A stretch of DNA of 63,104 bases. Source: a virus. The stretch lies in IMG/VR virus record IMGVR_UViG_3300048927_000230, positions 1 through 63,104 of that record, one strand, 5' to 3'. How positions within the stretch are numbered: the stretch's first letter is position 1; the number at the start of each line of letters is the position of its first letter. This document shows positions 9,214 through 62,475 of the stretch, in pieces. The notes below the pieces were generated by a model that had not been told where the DNA came from, ran no database searches, and was given only the letters and a program-made list of their open reading frames with translations. Position numbers and translations under genes: made by a program.

Positions 9214-10341
9214 TTACAGCGTGGGCATGAGCAGCCCGATAAAGTCGGGCGCGTCGTGGGAAATGATGATATGCGGGACCATCTTGCCGTCATCGGGTTC
9301 CGGCGGCTGCTCTATGGTCAATTCCGGCACGTTCAGCGTGCGGATAAAGTCTGCCGCGTAGCGAGGATTGAATTTGAATGGCCGGAAAACTTCACTGACT
9401 TCCGCGTCCAGTCGCTCGATCGCTTCTCCGCCTTTCTGATTATTGGCCGTAAGAAGGATGGCACCATCGTCGGGCGCGAAGGTGATCGCAGCATAACGAT
9501 CCGCTCCGGCGATGGTGTTGGCCCGGTCGAGGCAGTCCACAAAGTCGGCCCGCTTGAAATGGGCGGTCGGCAAATCGTCACGCGCCGGGACGACGCGCAT
9601 ATATTCGGGGAACGTCCCCTCGATCAGCTTCGCGGCGAGGCGAAGATTGTCGGCCGACAAGCTGATCGACTTTTCGTTCACCGCCACGGCAACGGATGTT
9701 GCGCCCTTGAAGACTTGCAAGGCCGCATCGACCGTTTCGACCGGCACGATAACGCGCGGGCAGTTTTCAGCGCCCTCCGGTATCGGCATGCCGGAGAGGG
9801 CAAGCCGGTGTCCGTCAGTGGCCACGAAGTGCATCGCGTCACCGAGCGTCACGTCGATGCAGACGCCTTGCAAATACCACTGATTATCGGCGGTCGACGT
9901 TGCGAAACGAACCCGGCTGAATGCGCGCTCGAAATCCTGCCCATTCAGATTGAAATTGCTGGTGGCAGGCTGATCGGCCCAAGCGGGGAAGCTGTCAGCC
10001 GAGATCGTACCCAGCTTTACGCGGGACCGGCCACCTTTGACGGTAAGGACGCCCTCGTCCGTCAGTTCAAGACTAACCTCCGTCGCCTTCTGATGCTTGC
10101 CGATCAGTGTTTTGAGCGCGTCGAAGCCGACCAAGAAACGGCCTGACGCCTCAACCTTCGCGGTAATGTTCGCTTCAGCAAAGCGGTCAATGTCGCAGGA
10201 TGCCAGCGAAATGGTCTGTGCGTCAGCGTCGGCAGTGATGCGGACACATTCCAGCGCTGGAATGACGCCCTTCTTCTGGGCCACCGCGCCGCCCCGGTCG
10301 ATCAGGGCTGCGAAGATGGGCTGGGGGATGAGGGCGCGCAT
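9214..10341 (-). CDS. dnaN: DNA polymerase III beta subunit (sliding clamp)
   Basis: The product is 375 residues, the full length of a bacterial beta clamp with three DnaN domains. Recognisable segments include a VSLELTDEGVLTVKGGRSRV strand, MHFVATDGHRLALS in domain 2, a GTFPEYMRVVP segment and the C-terminal LLMPTL end that shapes the peptide-binding pocket. It encircles DNA as a dimer and tethers polymerases, ligase and repair factors. The phage has no visible replicative polymerase of its own, so the clamp must work with host or phage factors. It starts at ATG 10341, overlapping the upstream lipoprotein gene. Confidence 0.95.
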   Translation of the reverse strand: MRALIPQPIFAALIDRGGAVAQKKGVIPALECVRITADADAQTISLASCDIDRFAEANITAKVEASGRFLVGFDALKTLIGKHQKATEVSLELTDEGVLTVKGGRSRVKLGTISADSFPAWADQPATSNFNLNGQDFERAFSRVRFATSTADNQWYLQGVCIDVTLGDAMHFVATDGHRLALSGMPIPEGAENCPRVIVPVETVDAALQVFKGATSVAVAVNEKSISLSADNLRLAAKLIEGTFPEYMRVVPARDDLPTAHFKRADFVDCLDRANTIAGADRYAAITFAPDDGAILLTANNQKGGEAIERLDAEVSEVFRPFKFNPRYAADFIRTLNVPELTIEQPPEPDDGKMVPHIIISHDAPDFIGLLMPTL

Positions 10342-13208: not shown

Positions 13209-13811
13209 ATGGCTTCCCTTGGTGGTTATCTTGAACAGGATACCGTCCCCGATACCGGCAATGGCGGCGGTGGCGAACCGCACCCGGTCGGCATCTATGA
13301 ATTCGAAATGCGCGAGTCCGACGTGAAGGCGACCGGCGGCGGCACGGGGCTGATGGCGGCATATGTCGCATTCGGCACCGGCAACAGCCAGGCGCCCAGC
13401 GACAACAAGGACAAGCGCGTCTGGGTCAATTTCAATATCAAGAACAAGAGCGCGCAGGCGCAATCCATCGGCCAGTCGCAATATAAGGCGCTGTACGAAG
13501 CCTGTGGCGGCGTCGACGTCGTGCGCTGCGAATATCACCAGATGGAGGAAACCGACCGGCTGCATTTCCTGCCGTTCTGGGCCGAGGTCGTGCATGAGCA
13601 GCGCAAGACGAAGGATTCCGGTTACAAGGAACTGGCATTCAAGCCGGACGGCTCGCCCGACATGCAGGCCGTGTTCAAGCGCTTTATGTTCGAAGGCATG
13701 GACGACGTCGCACAGTCCCCGCCGCCCAGCAAGGCGCCCGCGCAGAAGTCCGAACCCGAACAGAAACCCGCACCGGCAGCCGGGCGCGCGCGCCCCTGGT
13801 CGAAGCCCTGA
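13209..13811 (+). CDS. DUF669 family protein (putative ssDNA-binding protein)
   Basis: The product is 200 residues. The PVGIYEFEMRESDVKATGGG start, the KRVWVNFNIKN strand and IGQSQYKALYEACG match the DUF669 layout, a family often encoded beside phage RecA-like ATPases and thought to coat single-stranded DNA. The C-terminus is Pro-rich and ends RARPWSKP. Its place between the ATPase and the nuclease supports a recombination role. Confidence 0.8.
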   Translation: MASLGGYLEQDTVPDTGNGGGGEPHPVGIYEFEMRESDVKATGGGTGLMAAYVAFGTGNSQAPSDNKDKRVWVNFNIKNKSAQAQSIGQSQYKALYEACGGVDVVRCEYHQMEETDRLHFLPFWAEVVHEQRKTKDSGYKELAFKPDGSPDMQAVFKRFMFEGMDDVAQSPPPSKAPAQKSEPEQKPAPAAGRARPWSKP

Positions 13812-13818
13812 CCTGAAC

Positions 13819-13838
13819 GGGGCGGCTTAGTCCGCCCC
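13819..13838 (+). terminator. GC-rich hairpin after the DUF669 gene
   Basis: GGGGCGG (13819-13825) pairs with CCGCCCC (13832-13838) over a 6-base loop. There is no following T-run, so it could attenuate transcription or stabilise the upstream mRNA rather than act as a full intrinsic terminator. Confidence 0.4.
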
Positions 13839-13893
13839 ACACCCTTCCCAATCTCAAAATTTCACCAACTCTTATTTAAGGGAATGATCCCGC

Positions 13894-14211
13894 ATGCCTC
13901 CCGTAACCGTGAAAGTTCTGCACGTCGAAAAGGTGCAGGTTACTGCCGAAAATGAACTGGAAATCCTGAGAGGCGAATACGAGCGCCGGTACGACGACCG
14001 GGATTTCTGCGAAGGCGACGACGTCGAATTCATCCGCGAAGGTCGCCAGCGTCATGCCGACGCTTTTGGCGCCAACTATGTCGGCAAGCGCGCCGTTGTA
14101 ACGGCGCTGTCAGAGAATGGCGAAGACGTGAAGGTGTTGGCCATCACGGCTGATGGCTCGTTCGGTGAATTCTGGACGCCCGAAGCCTGCCTGGTGCGGA
14201 TCAAGGCATAA
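13894..14211 (+). CDS. Hypothetical protein
   Basis: The product is 105 residues, acidic, with VKVLHVEKVQVTAENELEIL and a final GEFWTPEACLVRIKA strand. It looks like a small beta-rich protein. Its TAA shares a base with the next ATG (TAATG). Unassigned member of the recombination operon. Confidence 0.65.
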   Translation: MPPVTVKVLHVEKVQVTAENELEILRGEYERRYDDRDFCEGDDVEFIREGRQRHADAFGANYVGKRAVVTALSENGEDVKVLAITADGSFGEFWTPEACLVRIKA

Positions 14212-15203
14212 TGGCCAAGCTTCCGCCGCTCAATAACAGCCGCTTGGCCGAAATGGTTTACGCTGCGCGTGCGGCGGAAGCCAATGATTGGGATGGGCTT
14301 GGCTTCAGCCCTTCCATGCTGGACTCATCGTGCGACAAGTTCCTTTGGCTGTCGCTCCGCTGGGCATTTCCGAAAGAGAAGATCGGCGGGCGGCAACACT
14401 TGCTGTTCGATAGCGGCCACTATCACGAAGCCAAAATGGTGGAAGGCCTGCGCCGCGCAGGGCTGGAACTGCACGAAGTGGACCCCGACACCGGCAAGCA
14501 ATTCCCCGTCCGCGCGCTGGCCGATCATCTGCGCGGCAAAATGGATGGCCGCATAGATCGCGGCGTGCCGGAGGCGCCGGAGAAACTGCACCTATTCGAA
14601 GCGAAATCCCACGGCGAAAAGTCGTGGAAGGCGCTGATTAAAGGGCCGACCGTCAAGGAAGGCAAATTCGCCCATTGGGTGCAGATGCAAGTCTATATGG
14701 GCATCACGGGTATTGACCGCTGCCTATATGGCGCGGTCTGCAAATCCACGGACGAATTGCACTTCGAACGCGTTCGGTTCGATCATGAATTCTATACGCG
14801 CCTTATCACCCGGCTAGACCGCATTTTGCGCACTTCGGAGCCGCCTGCCGGTATCTGTAAGGACGCAAAGGATTTTCAGGGCATGTTCTGCCGTGCGCGG
14901 GCCTTGTGCTTCGAATTCAGCTTTGCGCGCGTGAATTGCCGGACCTGTGTTCACAGCAACCCGGAAATGACCGGCAATGCCGCGTGGTCGTGCGCCCGAC
15001 ACGTCCAGCCGATCAATGCTGATCAGCAGCGCGAAGCGTGCCCCAATCATCTTTATATTCCGCAGCTTGTCCCCGGCGAAATGCTGGACGTGAGCGAGGA
15101 CGCTGAAACGATCCAGTACCGGCTGCATGACGGCCGCACATGGACGGACGGCGAAGACCGGGCCGACGCGCCCATTGCTGTTGAGGCAAATCCCAATGAC
15201 TGA
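14211..15203 (+). CDS. PD-(D/E)XK nuclease, Cas4/RecB-like
   Basis: The product is 330 residues. The nuclease core shows a buried Asp in GKMDGRID, FEAKS (the E-x-K pair near 142-146) and WVQMQVYMGITG (the Q-x-x-x-Y helix). Cys residues lie at FCRAR, LCFEF, NCRTC and further on, consistent with an iron-sulphur cluster as in Cas4/AddB-type exonucleases. It probably resects DNA ends for the ATPase/ssDNA-binding pair. Overlaps the methyltransferase start by eight bases. Confidence 0.85.
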   Translation: MAKLPPLNNSRLAEMVYAARAAEANDWDGLGFSPSMLDSSCDKFLWLSLRWAFPKEKIGGRQHLLFDSGHYHEAKMVEGLRRAGLELHEVDPDTGKQFPVRALADHLRGKMDGRIDRGVPEAPEKLHLFEAKSHGEKSWKALIKGPTVKEGKFAHWVQMQVYMGITGIDRCLYGAVCKSTDELHFERVRFDHEFYTRLITRLDRILRTSEPPAGICKDAKDFQGMFCRARALCFEFSFARVNCRTCVHSNPEMTGNAAWSCARHVQPINADQQREACPNHLYIPQLVPGEMLDVSEDAETIQYRLHDGRTWTDGEDRADAPIAVEANPND

Positions 15204-16491
15204 TTTTGAGAAATTCTTAGGCGGGCGTGTGCGCCTTGCCCACGGCGACAGCCGCGACGTGCTGAAAAGCCTTCCCGACAATTCTATTGATAGCGTTTGC
15301 ACCGATCCGCCGTATGCACTGGTGTCGATCGTCAAGCGGTTTGGCGGGGCGAACGCGGCGCCGACGCGTGACGGCGACGTGTATTCGCGCGCCTCGGCTG
15401 GCTTCATGGGGCAGAATTGGGACACGGGCGAAACCGCCTTTGCCGTCGAATTTTGGCAGGAGGTCATGCGCGTCCTGAAACCCGGCGGCCATGTGATCGC
15501 CGCCAGCGGCACGCGCACATATCACCGGCTCGCTGTGGCGATCGAGGACGCGGGCTTTGAAATCCGGGATATGGTGTCTTGGCTCTATGGGTCGGGCTTC
15601 CCGAAGTCGCACGACGTGTCGAAGGGCATTGATAAGGCCGCGGGTGCCGAGCGCGAAGTCGTCGGCCAAGCTAAGCGCACCGGCAAAGAGGCCGGAACTT
15701 ACGGCGCGATGGCGGGCGACAATGTCATTACCGCCGCCGCAACACCTGAAGCCAAGCAGTGGGAAGGGTGGGGGACCGCCCTAAAGCCCGCGTGCGAGCC
15801 ATGGGTGCTGGCGCGGAAGCCTTTGGCCGGGACTGTTGCGGGCAATGTGCTGGCCCATGGCACGGGCGCGCTGAATATCAATGCCTGCCGCGTTGGTGAA
15901 GAAGAGCGCACCTATGAGCCTAAAGGCACAAGTGCGAATGCCGCTATGATCCGCGTTCCGATCCATCGGATAGGCGTATCTGGCGAAGAGGTTACAGTAA
16001 AAGGCCGCTGGCCCGCCAACGTCATTCACGACGGCAGCGATGAAGTGGTCGGGGCCTTCCCGGATAGTAAATCAACCATCGGCAAACCGAGGAGCGCTGC
16101 CCCTGGTATCGGTTACGGGATGACGCATACCGGCGCCGAATATTCGGACGAAGGCTCCGCCGCCCGCTTCTTCTACAGCGCAAAAGCCGACGCCATGGAC
16201 CGCATCGGTTCGAAGCATCCGACAGTCAAGCCGGTCGATCTGATGCAGTATCTTTGCCGCCTCATTACGCCGCCCGGCGGCACGGTGCTCGATCCATTCG
16301 CAGGCAGCGGCTCGACCGGCGAGGCCGCTTATCGGGAAGGCTTCAACTGCGTCCTAATAGAGCGCGAGGCCGACTATGTGGAGGACATCCGCGAACGTCT
16401 CCGTCTGGCTCCTGCCGGAGCGCGCGCACGCAAGCGCGCCGTGTCTAAGAAAAAGGCCGTTGCTCCGTCCATCGGCGGAATGTTCTCATAA
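15196..16491 (+). CDS. DNA N6-adenine/N4-cytosine methyltransferase
   Basis: The product is 431 residues. The catalytic motif IV TDPPY lies near the N-terminus (residues about 35-39), and the AdoMet-binding FxGxG motif near the C-terminus (VLDPFAGSGSTGEAA), the beta-class order. Between them is a long insert (about 140-330) typical of phage enzymes, which may carry target recognition. No restriction nuclease partner is visible, so it is an orphan methylase, perhaps for evading host restriction. ATG 15196 lies inside the end of the nuclease gene. Confidence 0.92.
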   Translation: MTDFEKFLGGRVRLAHGDSRDVLKSLPDNSIDSVCTDPPYALVSIVKRFGGANAAPTRDGDVYSRASAGFMGQNWDTGETAFAVEFWQEVMRVLKPGGHVIAASGTRTYHRLAVAIEDAGFEIRDMVSWLYGSGFPKSHDVSKGIDKAAGAEREVVGQAKRTGKEAGTYGAMAGDNVITAAATPEAKQWEGWGTALKPACEPWVLARKPLAGTVAGNVLAHGTGALNINACRVGEEERTYEPKGTSANAAMIRVPIHRIGVSGEEVTVKGRWPANVIHDGSDEVVGAFPDSKSTIGKPRSAAPGIGYGMTHTGAEYSDEGSAARFFYSAKADAMDRIGSKHPTVKPVDLMQYLCRLITPPGGTVLDPFAGSGSTGEAAYREGFNCVLIEREADYVEDIRERLRLAPAGARARKRAVSKKKAVAPSIGGMFS

Positions 16492-16589
16492 TGTTCTCTT
16501 TTTAGCTTTCCTACACGGTTCGTTCTCCAGTAATTCCGAATCATCACGACGGAAAAACGAACCAAAATGAACAGCACAAAATCACCGGA

Positions 16590-16817
16590 ATGGAACAATA
16601 TATGCCATCACACGATCGCACGGCTATGGTCCTGCGCGGCGTACTTCGCCGCATTGCGCGGCAAGGCGACATGCCGATTCGCATATCGCGGCAAACATGG
16701 ACAATCATCCTGCGCGCAAACGGCTCCCGTTGGGAGGTTCAGGACAACCACCGCGAAATCGACGCCATGGCGCTTGAAGCGCTTGTCCGTCTTGCCGGGG
16801 GGAGGGCTTCGCTGTGA
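16590..16817 (+). CDS. Small basic hypothetical protein
   Basis: The product is 75 residues, or 71 from ATG 16602. It is Arg-rich with an RISRQTWTIILRANGSRWEV beta hairpin. It overlaps the helicase start by four bases and may be its co-translated partner. Unassigned. Confidence 0.6.
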   Translation: MEQYMPSHDRTAMVLRGVLRRIARQGDMPIRISRQTWTIILRANGSRWEVQDNHREIDAMALEALVRLAGGRASL

Positions 16818-18559
16818 GCCTTTGGACTCCCCGCTATTATCAAGAGGACGCAATAAACGGAACCTTCGACTATTGGGCCGAGGAAGGTGGCTCCCCCCTG
16901 ATCGTGATCCCGACCGGGGGCGGGAAGGCTGGTGTCTTGGGCACGATCATGCGCCGCCTGTTCGACAACTGGTCGGATATGCGCATCGTCAACCTTGCGC
17001 ACGTCGCGGAACTGGTCGGGCAGAATTACGAAGAATTGATCGGCATGTGGCCGTGGGCGCCCGCCGGTATTTATTCGGCTGGCCTCAACCGCCGTGACAC
17101 CCGCGCCCAAATCCTCTTCGCTTCGATTCAGTCCGTATGGAACAAGGTGGAACAGCTTGGCGCCATCGACCTTCTGATTATTGACGAAGCGCACATGGTG
17201 CCGCGGAAAGACACCACGACTTACGTGAAATTCATCAAGCGCGTTCTGGAACTGAATCCCGACTGCCGCTTGCTGGGCCTGACGGCCACTGACTACCGGC
17301 TTGATAGCGGACGGCTGACCGATGGCGAAGACCGGCTATTCGATAAGATCGCCTATGAAATCTCCATTCGCGAACTGATTGACGAGGGCTATCTAACCCC
17401 TCTCATTTCCAAGGCAACCGCGACATCGTTGGACGTGTCCGGCGTCGGCAAGCGCGGCGGAGAATTCGTGGCGGGCCAGTTGCAGGCCGCCGTCGACAAG
17501 GAAGACCTGAACCGGGGCATTATTGACGACATCGTCCGCTATGGAGCCAATCGACGCTCATGGCTGGGCTTCGCGTCAGGCGTGGAGCATGCGCACCACC
17601 TTGCCGAGGAGACGCGGTCGCGCGGATTCTCCGCTGCCGTTTTGGACGGCACAACGCCGGACGGCGAACGGCGGCAGATGATTGCCGATTTCAAGGCTTA
17701 TCGCCTGCGGAGCCTTTGGAACTGCGGGGTTCTGACGACCGGCTTCAATCATCCTGGCGTCGACCTGATTGCTGCGGCGCGACCGACCGAAAGCGCGGGC
17801 CTCTATGTTCAGATTGCCGGACGCGGGACGCGCAACGTCTATGCGCCGGGCATGCCGCTGTCCACGCGGGAGGAGCGGCTGGCGGCGATCGCCGCCGGGC
17901 CAAAGCCCAATTGCCTGTTTCTGGATTTCGGCGGCCTTGTGCGCCGTCATGGGCCTATCGACCTTGTGCAGCCCAAGCGCCCCGGCAAAGGTGGTGGGGA
18001 CGCGCCGGTTAAGGAATGCCCGGAATGTCATAGCCTTGTGCATGCCAGCGTCATGATATGCGGCGATTGCGGCTATGAATGGGAGCGCCAGCTTTCGCAG
18101 AAGATCACGCGTTCAGCGTCCGCCGGGCCGATTATTTCGAAGGCCGAGCCGGTCTGGAAGGACGTAACGCGGCGCAGCTTCTTCCGTCATGAGAAGTTCG
18201 GCTCGCCGCCGTCGATCCGCGTCGAATATTCCTGCAACGACGTGGCGCATAAGGAATGGATCGCGGTTGAAAATGAGAAGGCGGCCGGGCTTGTGGCGCG
18301 CTGGTGGAAAGCGAACGGCGGACAAGAGCCGATCCCCGCCACTGTGACGGAGGCATTGGAACGTGTCCCCGAATTGAAGCCCGTCGCGCAAATCCGCATC
18401 GAGCCGGATGGCAAATTCTTCAAAATTACAGGCAGGCGCATGGGCGGAGACGCACCCGACGAAGTGGACACCGGGCCGAAATATATCCGGGATGCGAACG
18501 GCAACAATATTGAGCCGAAGAGAGGCAACCTTGCCTCGCTGTTGAGGCCTGCGGCATGA
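16814..18559 (+). CDS. Superfamily 2 DEAD/DEAH helicase
   Basis: The product is 581 residues. Motif I reads IPTGGGKAG, motif II DEAH (LLIIDEAHM), motif III LTATD, and motif VI IAGRGTRN, an SF2 layout. Motif I has Ala where Thr/Ser normally holds Mg-ATP. After the second RecA domain lies a zinc knuckle (CPECHSLV, CGDCGYEW), then a C-terminal 150-residue domain. It would unwind or remodel DNA in replication or recombination. GTG 16814 overlaps the previous stop. Confidence 0.9.
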   Translation: MSLWTPRYYQEDAINGTFDYWAEEGGSPLIVIPTGGGKAGVLGTIMRRLFDNWSDMRIVNLAHVAELVGQNYEELIGMWPWAPAGIYSAGLNRRDTRAQILFASIQSVWNKVEQLGAIDLLIIDEAHMVPRKDTTTYVKFIKRVLELNPDCRLLGLTATDYRLDSGRLTDGEDRLFDKIAYEISIRELIDEGYLTPLISKATATSLDVSGVGKRGGEFVAGQLQAAVDKEDLNRGIIDDIVRYGANRRSWLGFASGVEHAHHLAEETRSRGFSAAVLDGTTPDGERRQMIADFKAYRLRSLWNCGVLTTGFNHPGVDLIAAARPTESAGLYVQIAGRGTRNVYAPGMPLSTREERLAAIAAGPKPNCLFLDFGGLVRRHGPIDLVQPKRPGKGGGDAPVKECPECHSLVHASVMICGDCGYEWERQLSQKITRSASAGPIISKAEPVWKDVTRRSFFRHEKFGSPPSIRVEYSCNDVAHKEWIAVENEKAAGLVARWWKANGGQEPIPATVTEALERVPELKPVAQIRIEPDGKFFKITGRRMGGDAPDEVDTGPKYIRDANGNNIEPKRGNLASLLRPAA

Positions 18560-20172
18560 TTTACGGCAGTGTGTGCAGCGGCATTGAGGCTGCGTCCGTC
18601 GCATGGCAAGGGATGGGCTGGAAAGCGGCCTATGTGGCCGACATAGAGCCGTTTCCGTGCGCCGTGCTGGCGCATCGGTTCGGCGCTGGGCGTCCAATCC
18701 ATATGCCGGACCCGAATGAAGTTGGCCTGGACGACGAGGCTGCGCGGGAACGGCGCAATGCTATCAAGGCTGTCGCGGACCTACCCGAAGTGGCGGCCAT
18801 CCCGAACTATGGCGACTTCACCCGCATTGCCGACGACGCCCCGGCGATTGATTTGCTGGTCGGCGGCACGCCCTGCCAGGCGTTCAGCTTCGCGGGGCAG
18901 CGCCAGTCGCTTGCGGATGCGCGCGGCAACCTCACTCTTGAATATGTCAGGCTCGTTCATGCAACAAAGTCTCTTCGATACGCCGTCTGGGAAAACGTCC
19001 CCGGCGTTCTCTCCACCGACGACAACGCCTTCGGCTGTTTCTTGGGCGGACTTGTCGGCGCGGATGATGCCATACCACAGCCACGGGGGGGCAAATGGCC
19101 AGATAATGGCATGGTCGCTGGACCCGGCGGACGCGCCGCGTGGACTGTTAAGGACGCTCAACATTTCGGACTGGCCCAACGGCGCAGTCGCGTGTTCCTT
19201 GTCTTCTGTCCTGCTGCCGCCGGAGGCGATCCAGCCGCGATACTTTTTGAGCGCAAAGGCGTGCGCGGGGATATTGCGCCGGGCCGCGGCGCGGGCCAAG
19301 GAATTGCCGGAAATGCTGGCGCGGGCGCTGCGCGCGGCTGCGGGCATAGCGCCGCCTCCGGCGACGGCTTAGTTCAGGACATCGTTGGGACGCTTTGCGC
19401 TGACACGCACCCCGGCAGCTACACTGGGCAAGATGCCTATTCCGGACGTCTCATACCTTTACAAATTGCGCACACCCTGCGCGGCGAGGGTTTCGACGCC
19501 AGCGAAGACGGCACAGGGAGCGGGACTCCACTCGTGCCGGTTGCATTTTCCGCGAAGGATTATGGCAACGACGCGACCGCCGACCTTGCGCCGACCTTGC
19601 GGGCGGGCGGGCATACTGGCAGCCACGCAAATGGCGGGGTAATGCCTGCGGTGGCGATCCCCATTCTGGAGGCTGGCGCGCGCACGGGGAGTTCGACCAC
19701 CGACACGCGTGCGGGCATGGGGGTGGGCGATGATGGCGACCCCATGTTTACCCTTCAGGCCAGCAAGCAGCACGCCGTGGCCTTTCAATCAGGCCAATCG
19801 GGCATGCGGGAAGGTGGGATACATGCCACCCTCGATGCAAATAACGGGAGCCGGAGGCACAATGACGTCATTCAAGCCTCCGCCGTTCGCCGTCTCACGC
19901 CCACGGAATGCGAACGCCTTCAGGGCTTCCCCGACAATCACACGCTTATCCCATGGCGCGGCAAGGCCGCACCTGACGGCCCCCGCTATAAGGCGCTGGG
20001 CAATTCCATGGCCGTTCCCGTGATGCGTTGGATAGGCGAGCGGATTCAGGCGTATGAGGATGGCACGCTCGACTCCTATGTGTGGCACCCCATCCCCGCT
20101 GGTTGGGCCTCCCCCCTGGCCGCGGAATTACACGAAGAAGACTTAGAGCATGACGCCAGTGAGGACGCATGA
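18556..20172 (+). CDS. DNA cytosine-5 methyltransferase
   Basis: The product is 538 residues. Motif I is SVCSGIEAASVAW, motif IV VGGTPCQAFSFAG with the catalytic Cys, motif VI WENVPG, motif VIII QRRSRVF, and the C-terminal motifs LTPTECERLQGFP and ALGNSM. An insert of about 200 residues between motif VIII and the C-terminal part is Gly-rich with loose repeats (TLRGEG, TLRAGG), in the target-recognition position. Orphan C5 methylase of phage type. It starts by ATGA overlap with the helicase gene. Confidence 0.93.
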   Translation: MIYGSVCSGIEAASVAWQGMGWKAAYVADIEPFPCAVLAHRFGAGRPIHMPDPNEVGLDDEAARERRNAIKAVADLPEVAAIPNYGDFTRIADDAPAIDLLVGGTPCQAFSFAGQRQSLADARGNLTLEYVRLVHATKSLRYAVWENVPGVLSTDDNAFGCFLGGLVGADDAIPQPRGGKWPDNGMVAGPGGRAAWTVKDAQHFGLAQRRSRVFLVFCPAAAGGDPAAILFERKGVRGDIAPGRGAGQGIAGNAGAGAARGCGHSAASGDGLVQDIVGTLCADTHPGSYTGQDAYSGRLIPLQIAHTLRGEGFDASEDGTGSGTPLVPVAFSAKDYGNDATADLAPTLRAGGHTGSHANGGVMPAVAIPILEAGARTGSSTTDTRAGMGVGDDGDPMFTLQASKQHAVAFQSGQSGMREGGIHATLDANNGSRRHNDVIQASAVRRLTPTECERLQGFPDNHTLIPWRGKAAPDGPRYKALGNSMAVPVMRWIGERIQAYEDGTLDSYVWHPIPAGWASPLAAELHEEDLEHDASEDA

Positions 20173-20687
20173 CGCCCATTGAAGCGGCCCTGAAAGCCTT
20201 CCCCGATGCTGAAATAGTAGGAATTGAACCATTGAACGGCCTCCATAACCACGATGCTGGCGAATCCGGCTTCTGCTTTGAATGTGACGCCAAAGATGAA
20301 GAGTTGGAACGATTGCGCGCGGAAGTGGCGGAAAAAATCAGCCCCGCAGAAGCCGCCCAGCTTATCCGCTACTCTGTGCCATCCCGCGCCTGCGCAAATT
20401 GCATGCGCGAGGCACTGGACGGCCTGAATTACCATCACGCGCCCCTTTGCACCACATGCGCCCCTCATGCCGGAAGTTTGGACAAGATGACCACTGACAC
20501 CGAAGAAGAAGCGATCGAGGCTGGCGGCATGAAGGCTGGCGAATATCTGGACGGGCTGGCGCAGGGCGCGGGCAAATATGATCTGGCCGACCTGTCGCCC
20601 CATGAATGGCGGACCTTCCTTGCGAGGGTATTGGAAGGCTATTCCGAACACATGCGCGAAGCGGTTAAAACCACGGCACCGTTTTGA
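20169..20687 (+). CDS. DUF6511-like zinc protein
   Basis: The product is 172 residues. Cys pairs (CFEC, CANC, CTTC) lie in the first 100 residues. The C-terminal GGMKAGEYLDGLAQ ... DLADLSPHEWRTFLARVLEG matches the DUF6511 pattern as I recall it. Function unknown. Located between the C5 methylase and the primase, with overlaps on both sides. Confidence 0.7.
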   Translation: MTPIEAALKAFPDAEIVGIEPLNGLHNHDAGESGFCFECDAKDEELERLRAEVAEKISPAEAAQLIRYSVPSRACANCMREALDGLNYHHAPLCTTCAPHAGSLDKMTTDTEEEAIEAGGMKAGEYLDGLAQGAGKYDLADLSPHEWRTFLARVLEGYSEHMREAVKTTAPF

Positions 20688-20701
20688 GGCCGCCGCATAG
20701 C

Positions 20702-23167
20702 ATGACAAGCGCATATTCTAACGACGCCGCCCTCTATCTGGAGAACGGATTGTCGGTCATCCCTTGCGGGCCGGGGACAAAGTTCCCCGGTCGATATACC
20801 GCCGCCGAAGGCTGGATGGCGGCCTATGATTGGCAAAAATATTGCACGCGCCTGCCGACCGGCTTTGAAACCAGCCTGTGGGACCGGTGGCCCGGCGCGG
20901 GCATCTGCCTAGCGCTTGGCGAAGCGTCCGGCGCAAATGGCCTGCATCTGGTCGCCATGGACATTGACACGGACGTGCCGGAGGAAGTTGCGGCCATCCG
21001 TTCCGTTCTGCCAGGTTCGCCGTGCGCCAAGCGCGGCGCCAAGGGTGAAACGCAATTCTACCTTGCCAGCGCTGCCGTAGTGTCCCGCCCGTTCAATGAC
21101 GGGCACAGGCGGCGCATACTGGACCTTCTGGCGTCCGGTCGTCAGACGGTCATGTCGCCAACGATGCACCCCGATTGCCAGTCATGCGGCGGCAAGGGTA
21201 CGGTGCTGGCCGACGCTGCCTGTAATGCCTGTGGCGCGGACGGGCAGGCCTATCGCTGGATCACGCCTGACACGCTGGCCGATTTTGCGGTTGCGGACTT
21301 GCCGGTTCTGCCCGACGATATTGCCGACAGGCTGGCGGAAGCGCTGGCCCCGTTCGGCTATGAGGCGGCGAGCCTGACGGTCGGCGCGGCCGGCAACGGC
21401 GAAATTGATCCGAACAACCCGCACCGCGCGCTAAACGATTCCGCGCTGGCAAACCTCGGCGCATGGGTGCCCGCGCTCCAGCTTTACGGCTGTCGCCAGA
21501 CCGGCGGAAAATATAAGGCGGTAGCCCACTGGCGCCCGTCGTCGTCGGGCCGCCCCATGTCGAAGCGCGCCACCAATCTCGCCATATCAGGCGACGGCAT
21601 CAAAGACTGTGGCGAAAACAAAGGCTACACTCCGCTTGATCTGGTCATGGCCGCGTGCGGCACGGATCTGGACACGGCTTTTGCGTGGTTGCAGGAGCGC
21701 GTTGCGCCGCATCCTATTCTGCAATTGAAGGCCTCGCCCGCGCCCGTGGAAGCGCCGGAGCAGCCGGAGGAACCGCGCCGCCGTGGCAACCTTTCGGGCG
21801 TGCGGCTGGCCGCCGTTGATGGTGTCGCGCTGGAGGCGGATGAGGAAATAACGGAGCCGGATGAAGAGGCGCCGGAGGGTTTGCCGGGCGGCTTGATCGC
21901 GCCCGATCTTTGCACCCCGCCCGGCCTGATTGGCGACGTTGTGGAGTGGATGAACGGCAGCGCTGATCGTCCGTTGCCGCAGGCCAATCTGGGCGCAGCC
22001 CTGGCATTCCTTGGCTCGCTCATGGGCCGTCGGTTCGAAGGGCCGACCCGCGCGCGAACGAACCTGTATTGCGTCGGCGTGGCGCCGACCGGGCGCGGGA
22101 AGAACCACCCGCTTACCGCCATCACCGAATTGGCCACGTCGTCGGGCGTGGATGGTTTCCTTGGTCCGGAGGGGATCAAGTCAGAAACCGCCATCCGCAA
22201 GCTGCTGGAGAACAAGCCCACCGTCGTCTGCATGATTGACGAAATGGGCGAGTTTATCAAAAAGATCATGTCGAAACGCGCCAGCGCGCACGAGTCCGGC
22301 ATTCGCGCAATCATGCTGTCCATTTTCTCTAAAGCGAACACGACCTATCACGGGTCCGAAGGCGCGATGGAAAAGGCCAACCCGATCCGCAACCCGAATT
22401 TCTGCGTCTATGGCACCAGCACGCCGGAAGACCTTTGGACGCAGTTTTCCACCGGCAACGCGGACGACGGCTTCCTCCCGCGCTGGCTGGTATTTGACGG
22501 CGGCGACAAGCGCGTGCGTCCGGTCACGCCGGAATTTGACGTGTCGGAGCCGCCGCGCGAATTGGCCAAGAAACTGCACGCGCTTCTTGACGTGCGCCCG
22601 CCGGGGAACCTGAACGGCACGGGCATGGTGAATAAGCCGATCCGCGCCACATGGGGCGACGGCGCGCAGGATATGTTCGCGGCGCTTCAGGATGAAATGG
22701 AAGACCGCATGGAAGAGGCGAAGGCCGACCGGCGCTTCACCGAGCAGAAGGTCGCCAGCCGCTTTGCCGAGCACACGATCAAGTTGGCCCTGATCTATGC
22801 CGTTGGATCGGCGGAGGACATGCGCCAGCCGGTAATATCGTGCGCGGCGCTGCATTGGGCGCGGGCGGTCGTTGAATCGTCCTCGATCGCGCTGACGATG
22901 GCCATTGAGGGCAAAATCGCGGACAGCGACATTCAGGCGCAATATCTGTGGGTGTTGGGTGCGATCCGCGACGCCGGGCCGGACGGCATCCTTGAGTCTG
23001 CGCTGCTCAAAATGGTCCGTGGCCGGTGGGATCAGCGACGGCACGGCGACATTCTGGGCCAGCTTGCGGGCGCGGGGGAGATATGGCGCGGCATTCGTGC
23101 GCCTGCCCATGGCGGACGCCCCGGTGCGCGGGTCGGGGCTTGGGGGCTTGAGGAGAAGGCGGGATGA
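20702..23167 (+). CDS. Primase-polymerase/DUF3987 ATPase replication protein
   Basis: The product is 821 residues from ATG 20702. The N-terminus (about 10-190) is a bifunctional primase/polymerase domain (GLSVIPCGPGTKFPG, then VAMDIDTD and a FYLAS strand), with a zinc pair CQSCGGKG/CNACGADG after it. The C-terminal half is DUF3987-like: Walker A APTGRGKNHP, Walker B VVCMIDEMGEF, and YGTSTPEDLW. It probably primes and unwinds phage DNA and is the main replication protein. A terminator follows directly. The next start upstream (20684) overlaps the previous gene and is less likely. Confidence 0.88.
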   Translation: MTSAYSNDAALYLENGLSVIPCGPGTKFPGRYTAAEGWMAAYDWQKYCTRLPTGFETSLWDRWPGAGICLALGEASGANGLHLVAMDIDTDVPEEVAAIRSVLPGSPCAKRGAKGETQFYLASAAVVSRPFNDGHRRRILDLLASGRQTVMSPTMHPDCQSCGGKGTVLADAACNACGADGQAYRWITPDTLADFAVADLPVLPDDIADRLAEALAPFGYEAASLTVGAAGNGEIDPNNPHRALNDSALANLGAWVPALQLYGCRQTGGKYKAVAHWRPSSSGRPMSKRATNLAISGDGIKDCGENKGYTPLDLVMAACGTDLDTAFAWLQERVAPHPILQLKASPAPVEAPEQPEEPRRRGNLSGVRLAAVDGVALEADEEITEPDEEAPEGLPGGLIAPDLCTPPGLIGDVVEWMNGSADRPLPQANLGAALAFLGSLMGRRFEGPTRARTNLYCVGVAPTGRGKNHPLTAITELATSSGVDGFLGPEGIKSETAIRKLLENKPTVVCMIDEMGEFIKKIMSKRASAHESGIRAIMLSIFSKANTTYHGSEGAMEKANPIRNPNFCVYGTSTPEDLWTQFSTGNADDGFLPRWLVFDGGDKRVRPVTPEFDVSEPPRELAKKLHALLDVRPPGNLNGTGMVNKPIRATWGDGAQDMFAALQDEMEDRMEEAKADRRFTEQKVASRFAEHTIKLALIYAVGSAEDMRQPVISCAALHWARAVVESSSIALTMAIEGKIADSDIQAQYLWVLGAIRDAGPDGILESALLKMVRGRWDQRRHGDILGQLAGAGEIWRGIRAPAHGGRPGARVGAWGLEEKAG

Positions 23168-42900: not shown

Positions 42901-43532
42901 TGATGGAGCGTGGCGCCGGGGGCGTCGGTTCGCCGGGCATGAACGATCTGGAGCGCCGCAGCGCGGACTCCATTAAATTCGGCGTGGTTCGTGAAGTCGA
43001 TTACTCCCGCAAGCCGCCCTCGGTCCGCGTCGCCATTGGCGACGAGGAGGATGACGAAGGTTGTTTGCTCACTGGCTGGCTGCAATTCGGGGGCGGTCGC
43101 GCGCGGGGGGATAGCGAGTGGCACCCGCCCGAAGAGGGCGAAAAGGTTGTCGTGCTATCCGAGTCCGGCGAGGTGCAAAATGGCATCGTTCTGCCACTTG
43201 GCCTTTATTCGGACGATGACCCCGCGCCCGGCGACAAAGCTGGCCTTTGGCGCAAGTCCTTCGCGGATGGGGCCAAGCTGGAATATGACCGCGATAGCGG
43301 CGAATTAACTTTCGAGGCCATGTCAAAGGGCACGGTCCAGGTAGGTGACGCAACGTTGGCAATCGTGAGTGGCTCGATCACTATGACGGTGGGCGGAGTA
43401 TCGCTTCAAATCTCCTCCAGCGGCGTCGCTATATCCGGCGGTTCCGTCAGCCATGACGGAAAGAACGTCGGCAAGGATCACAGGCACAGCGGTGTTCAGG
43501 CGGGCGGAGCGCAGACAGGCGCGCCGGTTTGA
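42894..43532 (+). CDS. V: Baseplate assembly protein V (tail spike)
   Basis: The product is 212 residues. FGVVREVDYSRKPPSVRVAI, LTGWLQFGGG, PPEEGEKVVVLSESGEVQNG and a C-terminal beta-helix with KDHRHSGVQAGG match P2 gpV: an OB-like N-terminus, then a spike ending in an HxH metal site. It punctures the outer membrane. First visibly P2-like tail gene. ATG 42894 overlaps the previous stop. Confidence 0.88.
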   Translation: MLMMERGAGGVGSPGMNDLERRSADSIKFGVVREVDYSRKPPSVRVAIGDEEDDEGCLLTGWLQFGGGRARGDSEWHPPEEGEKVVVLSESGEVQNGIVLPLGLYSDDDPAPGDKAGLWRKSFADGAKLEYDRDSGELTFEAMSKGTVQVGDATLAIVSGSITMTVGGVSLQISSSGVAISGGSVSHDGKNVGKDHRHSGVQAGGAQTGAPV

Positions 43533-43540
43533 TAATTTTT

Positions 43541-43565
43541 ATCCGTCACATCCGTTGACATCCGT
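43541..43565 (+). promoter_or_regulatory. Phased operator words and promoter before the RNA island
   Basis: ATCCGT at 43541, 43550 and 43560, with TTGACA at 43555-43560. A -10 at the 17-bp position is poor (CAAAAG), so this may act as an operator or need an activator. It is the only such element upstream of the tRNA and tmRNA genes and could control them. Confidence 0.5.
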
Positions 43566-43656
43566 TACCGAATCGGACAAAAGGGCTTCATCGAACGAAC
43601 ACCAACCGAAAGGCGGTGACAGATGCATACCGGAGCCTAAAGCCCTCCAATGCCAT

Positions 43657-43733
43657 TGCAGCGTAGCGCAGCCGGGTAGCGCGGCAGGCTCATAATCTGT
43701 AGGTCCGTGGTTCAAATCCACGCGCTGCAACCA
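43657..43733 (+). tRNA. tRNA with CAU anticodon (Met)
   Basis: Full cloverleaf of 77 nt ending in encoded CCA. Acceptor TGCAGCG/CGCTGCA, D-stem GCGC/GCGC, anticodon stem GCAGG/TCTGT with two G-U pairs, loop CTCATAA, T-arm CGTGG-TTCAAAT-CCACG. The first pair is U1-A72, unusual for elongator tRNA-Met. Could also be read by TilS as tRNA-Ile2; the sequence alone does not decide. Confidence 0.88.
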
Positions 43734-43884
43734 GTTTTCAAGAGTGCGCCGAACGTCGCCATCCTGCGGGATGGATTAACGATGGCAGCCCCCGCCACCG
43801 CCTTAGCTTAGCGCTGGGAAGACCGTGGACGTCGCGAAAGCGGCCACCTGTTAGGCCGGGTGAACGGGGTCATGATTTGCCCGA

Positions 43885-43966
43885 ATGGGTGACGTGGGTG
43901 AGGCGCTGGCGCTGACAGGGACTCCAAATCCTATGTCCGCAGGTTCGACTCCTGCCACCTGTGCCA
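43885..43966 (+). tRNA. tRNA-Trp-like (CCA anticodon), irregular D-arm
   Basis: Anticodon loop CTCCAAA, T-arm GCAGG-TTCGACT-CCTGC, acceptor 3' strand CACCTGT, G73 and encoded CCA. The 5' acceptor strand is ATGGGTG (43885) or GTGGGTG (43894); the second gives a 73-nt RNA with a 3-bp D-stem (GCG-CTGG-CGC). The 3' half is strong, the D-arm weak, so it may be a degenerate or specialised tRNA. Confidence 0.55.
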
Positions 43967-43974
43967 AATACGAG

Positions 43975-44034
43975 TTTCGCCCGGCACGCCGTTATCGCCC
44001 GCGATCAGTAATGTTCGCGGGGTGCCGGGCGAAA
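43975..44034 (+). ncRNA. Long perfect hairpin between tRNA and tmRNA
   Basis: TTTCGCCCGGCAC (43975-43987) pairs perfectly with GTGCCGGGCGAAA (44022-44034), and inside it CCCGCGA (43998-44004) pairs with TCGCGGG (44015-44021). Two stacked stems without a T-run. Two more hairpins follow: TGGTCC/GGACCA near 44053-44067 and GGCTTGCA/TGCAAGCC at 44076-44103. Processing signal or separate RNA. Confidence 0.6.
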
Positions 44035-44119
44035 GATATAATCCTGCGGTATGGTCCTTGCGGACCAGAAAGGCGGGCTTGCAGACTCCGCATAATGCAA
44101 GCCTTGAAGTGGTAGCAGA

Positions 44120-44480
44120 CAATTGATGCTAGAGCCGGGACAGCTACAGACCACGCCGGTATGATGATCGTAATTCGATCAAACTGGATGAAGGCAAGAC
44201 GCGGGGGCAGTACCCGCCGCCTCCACCATCACCGCTACGGGCGCATGCGAGCCGTACTATCTGTGCCGAAGATTTGGTTCGTTCGGAATGTCAGATCGGT
44301 GTTGATGGGGGCGAACTAGGATCGATTGCCAACGGAAGGGATGAGCGCGATCAAGTGAGGCCCGGCTTTGACAGGACCACAAGACTTAACCGTCAACGAC
44401 AACGACGCCCCTGTGGCGTTCCGTCTGGCCGCTTAATCGCGACCAAGGGGTTGCCCGGCACCTTGCAACAGAAGCCGGGT
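44120..44480 (+). ncRNA. ssrA: Circularly permuted (two-piece) tmRNA
   Basis: The acceptor piece comes first: GACGCGGG, T-stem GCGGG/CCCGC (44201-44217), acceptor 3' strand CGCCTCC (44218-44224), A73, CCA (44226-44228). The coding piece starts GGGGGCG (44307-44313), pairing fully with CGCCTCC and giving G3-U70, the alanyl-tRNA synthetase identity pair. TTGCC (44326-44330) pairs with GGCAA (44193-44197) as helix P2. The tag frame runs GTC 44392 to TAA 44434-44436: VNDNDAPVAFRLAA. It would rescue stalled ribosomes together with SmpB. Ends are approximate. Confidence 0.85.
44392..44436 (+). other. tmRNA tag-peptide reading frame
   Basis: Resume codon GTC (Val), 14 codons, stop TAA. The tag contains the NDN core of alphaproteobacterial tags and ends in -LAA, the Clp-protease degron form. 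A Val resume codon is unusual, since most tmRNAs resume on Ala or Gly (GCA, GCC, GGC). Confidence 0.75.
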
Positions 44481-44489
44481 TTGAGTTTT

Positions 44490-44563
44490 GTCCGCGAGGT
44501 AGTTCAACGGTAGAACGGAGCATCCCGCCCAAATGCAGGTTCGACTCCTGCCCTCAAGGCCAG
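44490..44563 (+). tRNA. tRNA-Gly-like element, probably degenerate
   Basis: A perfect D-arm (GTTC-AACGGTA-GAAC) and a perfect T-arm (GCAGG-TTCGACT-CCTGC, identical to the tRNA-Trp-like gene) with encoded CCA. But the anticodon region is about five bases too short, and the acceptor pairs only in its inner four positions. Looks like a tRNA-Gly pseudogene or a tRNA mimic. Confidence 0.4.
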
Positions 44564-44564
44564 T

Positions 44565-45450
44565 TTCGCCCGCAAGGGCGTCCGAGCAGGGGGTTTCCTG
44601 CCCATCGGGTTCATAGCCTCGTGGGGTCACTACTGGAAACAGCGGGACGGAGTAGTGACCGGCCCCCGCACCCCGCGAAGTCTAGCTGGCGACAAGCGAG
44701 CCGCGGCGCGACTGCGTTAAAGTTGCGACCCCTTCCCACGGGCGGAAAAATGGGCGTCGGCTCCCGACGAAAGTGGAAGGAATTCCACAACAAGCAGACA
44801 GCCGGAAAGACGGTGCTGGCGTAGCGCTGCGCTAGTCCGGGGTGGGATACGTCGCGATTACGTGGCCGCGACCCCGACCAAGATAGCCTTGCAATCTCTC
44901 CTCCGTTGCAAGGTGGGCGACGTGGCTTTCAGCCGACCCCCTTAAGCGTCGCCCAACATTATCAGCAGCAACGACGGGCCATTCAGTGTCCTGTCGGTTG
45001 GCTGATGGCGGTAATGGCAAGCGACGTGGCCCGCAGGACGTGAAGCGCGTTATGGGTGGCTCCGGTAATCCGGGACGGCAAGCGTTCGGCGCTCCGAGTG
45101 GGAGTATCCCCCACGCCCGGCGCCACCCATTTTCAGCCGGAATGGTCGTGATACCCGACCGTTGGTGATGCGCCCTTGGCCGGGCGGCGCAGCAGGAGCC
45201 GTAACCATTCGGCACGGATCGAACCCCGCATGTGTGCGGAAGCGTCACCGAATTTAGAGTTTCCTTGCGTCCGCGCAGGGCCGAAGCAGAGGCGAGTCCG
45301 ATCAGTCGCCAGCCGTGGTTGATGCCTGACGAGGCATGTAGGAGCAAATCGGTAAATCACTGTTCGGGGCAAATGGGTGGCGGCGCGAAGCTGGAGCGAC
45401 GGCGCAAGGCGATAACGCCGCCACCCAAACCGCCCAATCCCCTGCCATCC
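44565..45450 (+). ncRNA. Long highly structured noncoding RNA candidate
   Basis: About 890 bases with no credible gene but many perfect stems: CGCCC-GCAA-GGGCG (44567-44580); GGTCACTACT/AGTAGTGACC (44625-44634, 44651-44660); GTGGAA/TTCCAC near 44773-44788; GTCGCG/CGCGAC (44851, 44867); CTTGCAA/TTGCAAG (44888, 44906); GGGCGACG/CGTCGCCC (44915, 44947); ATGGGTGGC/GCCACCCAT (45052, 45122); TGGGTGGCGGCG/CGCCGCCACCCA (45374, 45416). Next to phage tRNAs this recalls giant ornate RNAs such as GOLLD or ROOL, by analogy only. Confidence 0.5.
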
Positions 45451-45469
45451 CCCCGCCTATCGTCCGCCA

Positions 45470-45826
45470 ATGGCAGGCATGGACCGTAACACCGGCAAAG
45501 CCCTTATCGGCTTCGCGCATGTTGAGCAAAGCATAGGTGTTTTGCTGACGACGCCGCGCATGCGGCGGGTGATGCGACGCGCATTCGGATCGGACCTTGT
45601 TCGCTTGGTCGATGCGCCCATCAATCAAGCCTCTCTCATTGAATTTTATGCCGCCACGGCAAAGGCAATCAATATGTACGAGCCACGGTTTCGCGTGTCC
45701 CGCCTGACGGTGGAGGGCGCCGAGCGGGGCCGTATCAAGCTGCGAGCGGAAGGCACGTATTATCCGCGTGGGCATCTGGGGGACTTCTCCATTTCGTCGG
45801 CGGAAGTCACGGCGGTGCTGCTGTGA
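45470..45826 (+). CDS. W: Baseplate protein W (gp25-like)
   Basis: The product is 118 residues. ALIGFAHVEQSIGVLLTTPR, MRRVMRRAFGSDLVRLVDAP and a C-terminal beta strand match the GPW/gp25 wedge family. Structural part of the baseplate. Starts at ATG 45470 right after the RNA island and overlaps gene J. Confidence 0.9.
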   Translation: MAGMDRNTGKALIGFAHVEQSIGVLLTTPRMRRVMRRAFGSDLVRLVDAPINQASLIEFYAATAKAINMYEPRFRVSRLTVEGAERGRIKLRAEGTYYPRGHLGDFSISSAEVTAVLL

Positions 45827-56545: not shown

Positions 56546-56796
56546 AATCGTGTTGCAATTGGGAAGTAGGTTTGTCATCTAGCCCGTGTCTGGCAAAATC
56601 CAGGCAAGGGATTGGAACCCCTATCACCAATGAGCGCACCCGCGCCAAACTTCGTCGTTAGGCGCGGTTTCTTATGGTCGGGCATGTTGCGAGCCTCTTC
56701 GGGGGCGCCGTTCTCATTGGCGGTAGTTCCAATCGCGGCATGTCCGGCCACCAAGTATTGGAACACTTGACCCGGACGCAATTGAAGAGGCGTCCA
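56546..56796 (+). other. Leader of the antirepressor gene
   Basis: About 250 bases without a gene. GATTGGAAC (near 56610) and GTTCCAATC (near 56727) are inverted copies, and several shorter stems lie between them. A minus-strand T-arm-like element is also visible. It may fold into a regulatory leader that controls antirepressor translation. Confidence 0.4.
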
Positions 56797-60501: not shown

Positions 60502-62475
60502 ATGGCAAAGCGCGGTGGTGTCGTATCGGTTTCCAGGGCTGACGGGGTTAGCCTGTTCTGGTCATCTGACGGCACGACGTCCGGCGTCCTGACGCCGATC
60601 GATCCGAATGGGAGCGTTCGGGCCTACTTTACGGCGCAGGGGGATTCTCGATATTGGGCAAGCCCGAATGGGCAGGTTGTCGACATCGGACTGGCTACGG
60701 GGGGCGTTGTGCCGCCGACGCCCGTGCGTGCATTCGGCGCCGTCGCCACGACTCATGACGCATCTACCGGCCAGACCTATTACGCGCCAGCAGGAATGAC
60801 GAATCCCCAATGGTATCGCGAGGCTCTAACCAGCGACCGGACCAAGACACTGATCGCCGGGGCGACGGGCGCATCCTATGTGGCGATGGCAGCAGATGAG
60901 CGGTCCCGCCTTGGCGTGCAGGGCATGGTCAACGGAGTTCTGACTTTTGCGGTGGCGATCCCCGATGTTCGCCCCGCTCCGATCGTTCTTATCGGCGCGC
61001 AGACCATCACGGGCTGGACCACCAACGCCGGGGTACTGGCTGACGATACGGCCATCAAGTTTCGCGGCAATCAATCCATCAAACTGACCTTGGCCGGAGT
61101 CGCAGGCGCGACCATGACCGCCCCCGCAACCGGCATTACCGATGTTCCGACGAACCTTGGCGTTATCACGTCCTTCTTTCGCGTGCCGACTGATTGGGTT
61201 GATTCCCTTTCCTTCACCAGCGTTGACACGCGCATTGGTGTAAGTGGCACTTATTACGGCCAAACCAACAAGGTTTGGAACGGATCGGCCGTTTCAGCGG
61301 ACGTGACCGGCCCTACGGGCTTGGCCACTTCGATTAAAAATGGCGGCTGGAGGGTTCACGCCTTCAATGTTAACGAAGTCGATACGCTAAAGGATTTCGC
61401 GACGCCTCAGGTCATTCAGGCCCGCGCCGTTGTAGGGTCGCAAAACCCCTATAACGCCAGCATGAATTTCGGCGGCGCGCTTGCGAAGTCCGGCGGGCGG
61501 CCGTCGTTGGTTCTCACGGGCGACGACAGCTATAATAATCTGGCGAAGCTGCATCCGATACTAGAGCAATATCAAATCCCTCTAACGCTCTTTGTGGCCC
61601 CCAATTATGTCGGGAACGCCACCGCGCTGGCCTATGAGCAAATGCGGTGGATGAAGTCGACCGGGCTTTATGAGTTCCAATGCAACGGGAAGATGGATGA
61701 CACCACGTCCATGATTTCCATGGCGACGATGGACGAGGCTGTCACCAGTCTTTCCACCGGCCTGCTGGGGGTTCGTCAAAAGGTCATTTCCGAAGGGCTG
61801 AACGACAACCCAATGGCCCTGTGCTACCCGTTCGGATCGGTGGGCAATGTGCCGCCGACAGTCGGTCTTGCCAATGTCAACAAAACCATCGACTCGAACA
61901 TCGTAACCGTACCCAGCACATCGGGCCTCGTGCAAGGCTCCGTGCTGGATAGCGTCGGGCTGCCCAAAGGCACGACCATTTCGCTGATCATGGACGGAAC
62001 GACGCTGCAACTGTCCGCGAATGCAACCGCCACGAACACGCTGGTAGGACGCGCCACCGACATGTCGGGCATTTTCGCGGCGGCGAAGCTGGTGGACGCC
62101 ATTGCGGCCACGGGCTACTTCAAGATAGGCCGGACCACGAGCGGAACGGTGCCGAAATCCGCTATTGTCCCGCATCGGTTCGGCCTGGGTGATCTGCGCC
62201 AATCCTTGACGTTCCCCGGAACTTCCCTGTCCACCCGCACCGATCTGGGGGTGGATATGTGCAACGCCATGGACCTGATGATTGCGCGAGGCGGCGCGAT
62301 GATGCCCTACCTTCACATTGTGGACGACACCAGCGCCAGCGGCTTGAGAACGTCCGAAGCGGACGTGGCAATGATCTGCGCATATGCGGCAGCACGGCGA
62401 AACGCGGGCGAAATGGACCCGCTATTCTGCTCCCACCTGTGGGCTGGGTATGGGGGCGCGTCGCCGCCGATCTAA
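60502..62475 (+). CDS. Polysaccharide-deacetylase-like surface protein
   Basis: The product is 657 residues. An N-terminal 70 residues of fibre-like repeats, a central beta domain (about 150-310), and a NodB-like fold from about 330: VLTGDDSY replaces TFDDG, LTLFVAPNYVG is conserved, and CYPFGS fits motif 3. But the second motif, usually with two His, reads EFQCNGKMDD here. Residues about 450-518 are an inserted Ig-like stretch. Probably binds or trims cell-surface polysaccharide. GGAG precedes ATG 60502. Confidence 0.72.
   Translation: MAKRGGVVSVSRADGVSLFWSSDGTTSGVLTPIDPNGSVRAYFTAQGDSRYWASPNGQVVDIGLATGGVVPPTPVRAFGAVATTHDASTGQTYYAPAGMTNPQWYREALTSDRTKTLIAGATGASYVAMAADERSRLGVQGMVNGVLTFAVAIPDVRPAPIVLIGAQTITGWTTNAGVLADDTAIKFRGNQSIKLTLAGVAGATMTAPATGITDVPTNLGVITSFFRVPTDWVDSLSFTSVDTRIGVSGTYYGQTNKVWNGSAVSADVTGPTGLATSIKNGGWRVHAFNVNEVDTLKDFATPQVIQARAVVGSQNPYNASMNFGGALAKSGGRPSLVLTGDDSYNNLAKLHPILEQYQIPLTLFVAPNYVGNATALAYEQMRWMKSTGLYEFQCNGKMDDTTSMISMATMDEAVTSLSTGLLGVRQKVISEGLNDNPMALCYPFGSVGNVPPTVGLANVNKTIDSNIVTVPSTSGLVQGSVLDSVGLPKGTTISLIMDGTTLQLSANATATNTLVGRATDMSGIFAAAKLVDAIAATGYFKIGRTTSGTVPKSAIVPHRFGLGDLRQSLTFPGTSLSTRTDLGVDMCNAMDLMIARGGAMMPYLHIVDDTSASGLRTSEADVAMICAYAAARRNAGEMDPLFCSHLWAGYGGASPPI

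Follow-up and report, generated by a model that had tools for sequence, protein, structure and literature searches.

A candidate large noncoding RNA next to a permuted tmRNA in the late tail operon of a temperate phage

Two families of large noncoding RNA, GOLLD and ROOL, are encoded in phage and prophage genomes, in many cases close to tRNA islands, and their function is unknown. Many GOLLD members exceed 800 nt, the 3' region of GOLLD is universally conserved, its expression rises during lysis, and it forms an RNA-only 14-mer cage; a Met-tRNA lies upstream of one member, GOLLD env-38 (all these points are from excerpts of PMC12286853). Here we describe a 0.9-kb stretch of a phage genome that may, as a tentative first choice, be a large noncoding RNA specific to its phage lineage, comparable to GOLLD and ROOL in place and size and a member of neither.

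The phage is temperate. The window, that is, the whole stretch of 63,104 bases that was analysed, encodes an integrase (1120–2322), a GpA-type terminase, a capsid E protein and a P2-like contractile tail. The host may be alphaproteobacterial, perhaps a sphingomonad, because the best matches of the tmRNA among named phages are those of Erythrobacter and Mesorhizobium phages. Several genes outside the tail operon were also recorded. A C4 antisense RNA (RF01695, 55.5 bits) is present at 56670–56755, at the beginning of the frame of a Bro-N protein, an arrangement like that of P1-type antirepressor control. The phage carries its own DNA polymerase III beta clamp (9214–10341) with all three Pfam domains, and the best bacterial matches found for it are about 33% identical. 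Two DNA methyltransferase genes of differing types (N6/N4 and C5) are located at 15127–16491 and 18556–20172, and a large protein close to the right end (60502–62475) has a polysaccharide deacetylase domain slightly under the Pfam cut-off.

Within the late tail operon, an insert of 1,937 nt separates the tail spike gene V from the baseplate gene W, and the noncoding stretch forms the 3' half of this insert. The region is organized as follows:

42936–43532, + strand: gpV baseplate spike gene, left flank (PF04717, PF18946; start codon provisional)
43533–45469, + strand: insert between tail spike gene V (end at 43532) and baseplate gene W (gp25; start at 45470)
43657–43733, + strand: tRNA-Met (CAT), from ARAGORN; RF00005, 65.1 bits at 43657–43730
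43894–43966, + strand: weak tRNA-Trp (CCA), from ARAGORN at relaxed thresholds only
43975–44034, + strand: hairpin 3' of tRNA-Trp with 17-nt arms, 94% complementary, from a repeat search
44119–44482, + strand: permuted alpha-type tmRNA (RF01849, 87 bits; RF04321, 97 bits)
44493–44559, + strand: tRNA-like element with a short anticodon arm (RF00005, 34.1 bits; cut-off 29)
44560–45450, + strand: orphan noncoding stretch, candidate large RNA (no coding signal, excess of long stems, no Rfam match, no homologue)
45470–45826, + strand: gp25/W baseplate wedge gene, right flank (PF04965)

An earlier reading, made from the sequence alone, had located the stretch in a late operon next to tRNAs and a tmRNA. 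This placement was borne out by the tRNA-Met, the weak tRNA-Trp, the permuted tmRNA and the tRNA-like element, all upstream of it. The segment 43897–43967 matches, by blastn, a tRNA-Pseudo-CCA of a Bradyrhizobium phage. The element at 44119–44482 is a permuted alpha tmRNA according to its Rfam model matches and its tag reading frame, and a relaxed ARAGORN run reads the tag VNDNDAPVAFRLAA at 44392–44436, which resembles the tag VNDNDVVVARDEVRLAA of Erythrobacter phage vB_EliS-L02. This tmRNA motif is common among viral contigs (at least 120 stretches), and a tRNA adjoins it at several of the loci inspected. In vB_EliS-L02, about 8.3 kb (13312–21613) are without annotated genes, and the right half of this region contains the tRNA array and the tmRNA. 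The tRNA-like element of our phage aligns to RF00005 only if a local gap is opened in its anticodon arm, and it looks truncated.

The V-W distance is much shorter in related phages. Both genes could be placed in 20 of the 24 gp25 relatives, the nearest of which came from IMG/VR, and the gap ranges from 56 to 612 nt. The six nearest relatives, all 54% identical in gp25 and probably of one lineage, have a gap of 56 nt; the remaining 14 have 163–612 nt, and in several of these the gap contains additional frames.

The 0.9-kb stretch is real and noncoding. For 11 sub-windows of 44560–45450, the codon log-likelihood of the best of the six frames was between −0.05 and −0.21 per codon, compared with a 5th percentile of +0.05 for 76 windows from 13 held-out genes (17 genes of the window supplied the codon usage). 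Codon phases differed in GC by 0.02–0.08 in 300-nt sub-windows starting at 44550–45300, as against a background median of 0.19, and ten ORFs of the insert and its edges were compared with PHROGs and Pfam families, with no match at E ≤ 0.1. Codon scores are negative in all frames, and the initial claim that the stretch contains no credible gene was confirmed.

The same initial reading had proposed that the stretch might belong to GOLLD or ROOL or represent a new class. A covariance-model check spoke against membership of GOLLD or ROOL, with no match to either family at the gathering score, at E ≤ 5 or at E ≤ 10. More generally, no Rfam family matched the stretch at its gathering score, and none at E ≤ 5 in a search of 2 kb; in 1 kb at E ≤ 10, only two sub-threshold matches lay inside 44560–45450 (E of 6 and 9.9). 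The families without a match include introns and other large RNAs as well as GOLLD and ROOL. Two further candidates were rejected. For an interrupted tRNA, ARAGORN, with introns allowed and at normal thresholds, found no tRNA within the stretch (its relaxed runs gave many overlapping spurious tRNA predictions among those listed), and a decayed tRNA array was dismissed, the Rfam tRNA model finding only 44493–44559 there.

Homologues of the stretch were sought in phages, plasmids, viral contigs and bacterial genomes. None of 50,697 phage records matched it at E ≤ 5. A blastn comparison with phages gave 12 matching records, all in tRNA or tmRNA parts; among plasmids, 230 records matched, and the 30 of them that were listed match in tRNA-Met. 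For 18 records of relatives, matches were obtained in nine, all of 28 nt or less (E of 0.03–1). Relatives were also sought by protein: the capsid protein gave none, the terminase gave two, which were included in the blastn/nhmmer and covariance-model searches, and the baseplate J protein, searched in genomes, gave four (Acinetobacter and Vibrio); two Acinetobacter/Vibrio genomes gave no match to the stretch. Among 337 alphaproteobacterial genomes, matches were seen in five, all to the tmRNA. In 397 genomes of presumed Sphingomonadaceae, assigned because the 23S rRNA of the central genome shares 92% identity with its Sphingobium sp. V4 counterpart, 16 genomes had matches of 24–40 nt (best E 4.7e-4; roughly 2 expected from the E-values), which we read as chance similarity of GC-rich DNA because none extends further. 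In both of these genome searches, two first-look candidates were scored per listed genome. A small family of 16 gave no match.

In 192 loci, 119 of them viral with the permuted-tmRNA motif, the only matches to the stretch by blastn and nhmmer were the same short ones of 24–40 nt, and 50 whole virus records had no match to the stretch. A stricter tmRNA pattern retrieved one viral contig, which carries a tmRNA and has no match to the stretch. Noncoding gaps were surveyed around the 119 viral tmRNA loci and four others, by a crude ORF rule that puts the right boundary of the gap in the window itself at a wrong position, and Rfam searches of 15 selected loci yielded tRNAs and tmRNAs only. Three exact patterns from the stretch had 0, 1 and 0 matches in viral contigs, the single match being AT-rich, coding-like DNA. 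For the middle domain described below, a covariance model was built from the window sequence alone; as a single-sequence model, it has low power. It found only itself and chance matches (E of 0.68 and 0.89) in 155 sources and one match (E of 0.075) in the 397 genomes. Close relatives may exist, because the collections searched may lack records that are very close to the window. In the literature, the element is not named among the matches listed for GOLLD/ROOL, phage permuted tmRNA, tRNA-cluster large noncoding RNA and Sphingomonas tmRNA.

To assess the stems of the stretch, we counted perfect stems and compared them with 400 dinucleotide shuffles and 267 overlapping background windows from elsewhere. 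There are four stems of at least 9 bp (loop ≤100 nt), a number reached in none of the 400 shuffles and in two of the 267 windows, and six of at least 8 bp with the same loop limit (2 shuffles, 10 windows). For shorter stems the counts were nine of at least 7 bp (loop ≤100 nt; 78 shuffles, 88 windows), 21 of at least 6 bp (loop ≤60 nt; 22 shuffles, 27 windows) and 13 of at least 5 bp (loop ≤10 nt; 30 shuffles, 22 windows). Thus, the many perfect stems noticed originally are in excess at 8 bp and above, whereas the shorter ones are ordinary or slightly high in number. The GNRA or UUCG-like loops noticed at the same time were confirmed in part: of the 11 listed stems of at least 5 bp with loops of up to 9 nt, two have GNRA loops (GCAA, GGAA) and none has a UUCG loop.

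Folding energies do not separate the stretch from the coding DNA of this genome. The z-score over 881 nt was −2.44 on the + strand and −1.07 on the − strand, and 14 of 70 background windows were as low; the advantage of + over − was also ordinary, as 16 of 35 background windows showed as much. Local folding z-scores, calculated by two methods, were no better than those of coding DNA of the same GC-rich genome. The part containing the tmRNA and tRNAs itself scores no better, and therefore these local tests have little power either way. The GC skew of the stretch was ordinary compared with the background, and Rho-type C-over-G stretches showed nothing unusual. The stretch has no conspicuous promoter or terminator of its own, and no promoter-like or terminator-like site was seen on the + strand inside the stretch.

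Partition-function folding suggests the following elements:

44586–44595, + strand: 5' arm of a possible closing helix; predicted to pair with 45436–45445 at a mean probability of 0.94 when the span is unlimited
44835–45039, + strand: predicted branched domain with a closing stem and three hairpin arms; MFE and centroid structures agree; z −3.70 on +, −0.51 on −
45366–45436, + strand: predicted hairpin with a 12-bp perfect stem (45374–45385 with 45416–45427); z −4.58
45436–45445, + strand: 3' arm of the possible closing helix

An end-to-end helix as long as this one of 10 bp occurred in 13 of 2000 shuffles and in 17 of 990 background windows. The span 44586–45445 has a z-score of −3.46 (20 shuffles), and the segment 45045–45166 one of only −0.93. 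The closing helix and the domain boundaries were picked after folding, so that the z-scores of the chosen pieces are flattering. When base pairs were allowed to span no more than 300 or 150 nt, alternative pairings won over much of the stretch, and therefore its overall fold is not fixed. In addition, the stretch and the tmRNA share complementary arms of 17 nt and 14 nt, the two pairs of which are not collinear.

Taken together, a structured RNA that works in a similar way to GOLLD/ROOL is the single most likely explanation, put forward tentatively. It is favoured by 1.9 kb without coding signal, by the length of the insert in comparison with that of relatives, by genuine RNA genes directly upstream on the same strand and by the excess of stems of at least 8 bp; a possible helix closing the ends and a branched domain that is better on the + than on the − strand also speak for it, as does the fact that known large phage RNAs often lie near tRNA islands (in the excerpts of PMC12286853). 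Against it count the lack of a homologue, and hence of covariation, the whole-stretch z-score matched by 14 of 70 windows and local z-scores no better than those of coding DNA, the ordinary strand advantage and GC skew, the lack of an own promoter or terminator, and the choice of domains and closing helix after folding. Under this explanation, the stretch would be transcribed within the late tail operon, and a cut at the 3' terminus of the tRNA-like element (44559) would release the 5' end of the RNA. Such a release from the transcript might be expected because tRNA-processing enzymes cleave permuted tmRNA transcripts (excerpts of PMC11915505). The RNA, approximately 44586–45445, would then fold on itself, with the 10-bp helix closing it, the branched domain in the middle and the strong 3' hairpin just before W, and its role late in infection might be a structural one, of the sort that GOLLD and ROOL are suspected to have.

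Ranking a close second is passive or decayed filler: a tRNA and tmRNA cassette with 0.9 kb of leftover DNA, idle as RNA, in which GC-rich sequence folds by chance. The unremarkable folding energy, the lack of conservation in any search and the truncated look of the neighbouring tRNA-like element all fit this explanation. However, chance folding does not readily account for stems of at least 9 bp in a number that so few shuffles and windows equal, the late operons of phages are compact, and neither a trace of a former gene nor a decayed tRNA is present inside the stretch.

It is unlikely that the stretch is instead a cis-acting leader, that is, a long 5' untranslated region of W-J-I that sets translation or message stability after tRNA excision, mainly via the 12-bp hairpin. 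The hairpin (45374–45427) does end 42 nt before the W start at 45470, and the + strand is free of terminator-like sites, but 0.9 kb far exceeds what a leader needs, and the nearest relatives manage with a V-W spacing of only 56 nt. A series of adjacent small RNAs in place of a single large one is more improbable still: the separate, well-defined hairpin domains would suit them, but the possible closing helix joins both ends, and the lack of promoter-like and terminator-like sites on the + strand also argues against them. There is very little chance that the stretch is a highly diverged GOLLD or ROOL member, which its place, its size and the precedent of env-38 downstream of a Met-tRNA (excerpts of PMC12286853) would allow, given that no match was obtained even at E ≤ 10 and that GOLLD is described there with a universally conserved 3' region. 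Least probable of all is that either strand carries a protein gene, such as the existing 171-aa minus-strand frame at 44832–45347, which was rejected on codon scores, GC phases and the lack of family matches, long chance frames being common in GC-rich DNA.

If the large RNA proves functional, a large tRNA-linked noncoding RNA would have been reached by phages of this kind without sequence shared with GOLLD or ROOL. Such RNAs would then look like a general strategy of phages, and the stretch would provide a new case for asking what their role is. It is conceivable, though improbable, that it would then form a new class of its own among large phage RNAs, related to neither family, of about 860 nt, with a 10-bp closing helix, released from the late tail transcript by tRNA processing beside a tmRNA and serving late in infection as a scaffold or assembly made of RNA. 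In addition, the locus is a clean place to ask whether a late operon can accommodate an untranslated RNA of 1.9 kb.

Compared with the known systems, the tmRNA at 44119–44482 belongs with the permuted alpha-type tmRNAs (RF01849/RF04321) of Erythrobacter phages vB_EliS-L02 and XM05 and Mesorhizobium phage Cp1R7A-A1, whereas the 0.9-kb stretch differs from these three phages, whose whole records contain only matches to it of 26 nt or less. With ROOL it has no covariance-model match, yet it shares the location in a phage or prophage near tRNA islands, the large size and the noncoding nature (excerpts of PMC12286853). Unlike GOLLD, it has no covariance-model match, no recognizable conserved 3' domain and no homologues in the collections searched. 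What it has in common with GOLLD is the location in a phage or prophage, adjacent tRNAs (Met-tRNA in the case of env-38), a length of roughly 0.8–0.9 kb and the lack of coding capacity (excerpts of PMC12286853), so that the resemblance to both families is one of place and size only.
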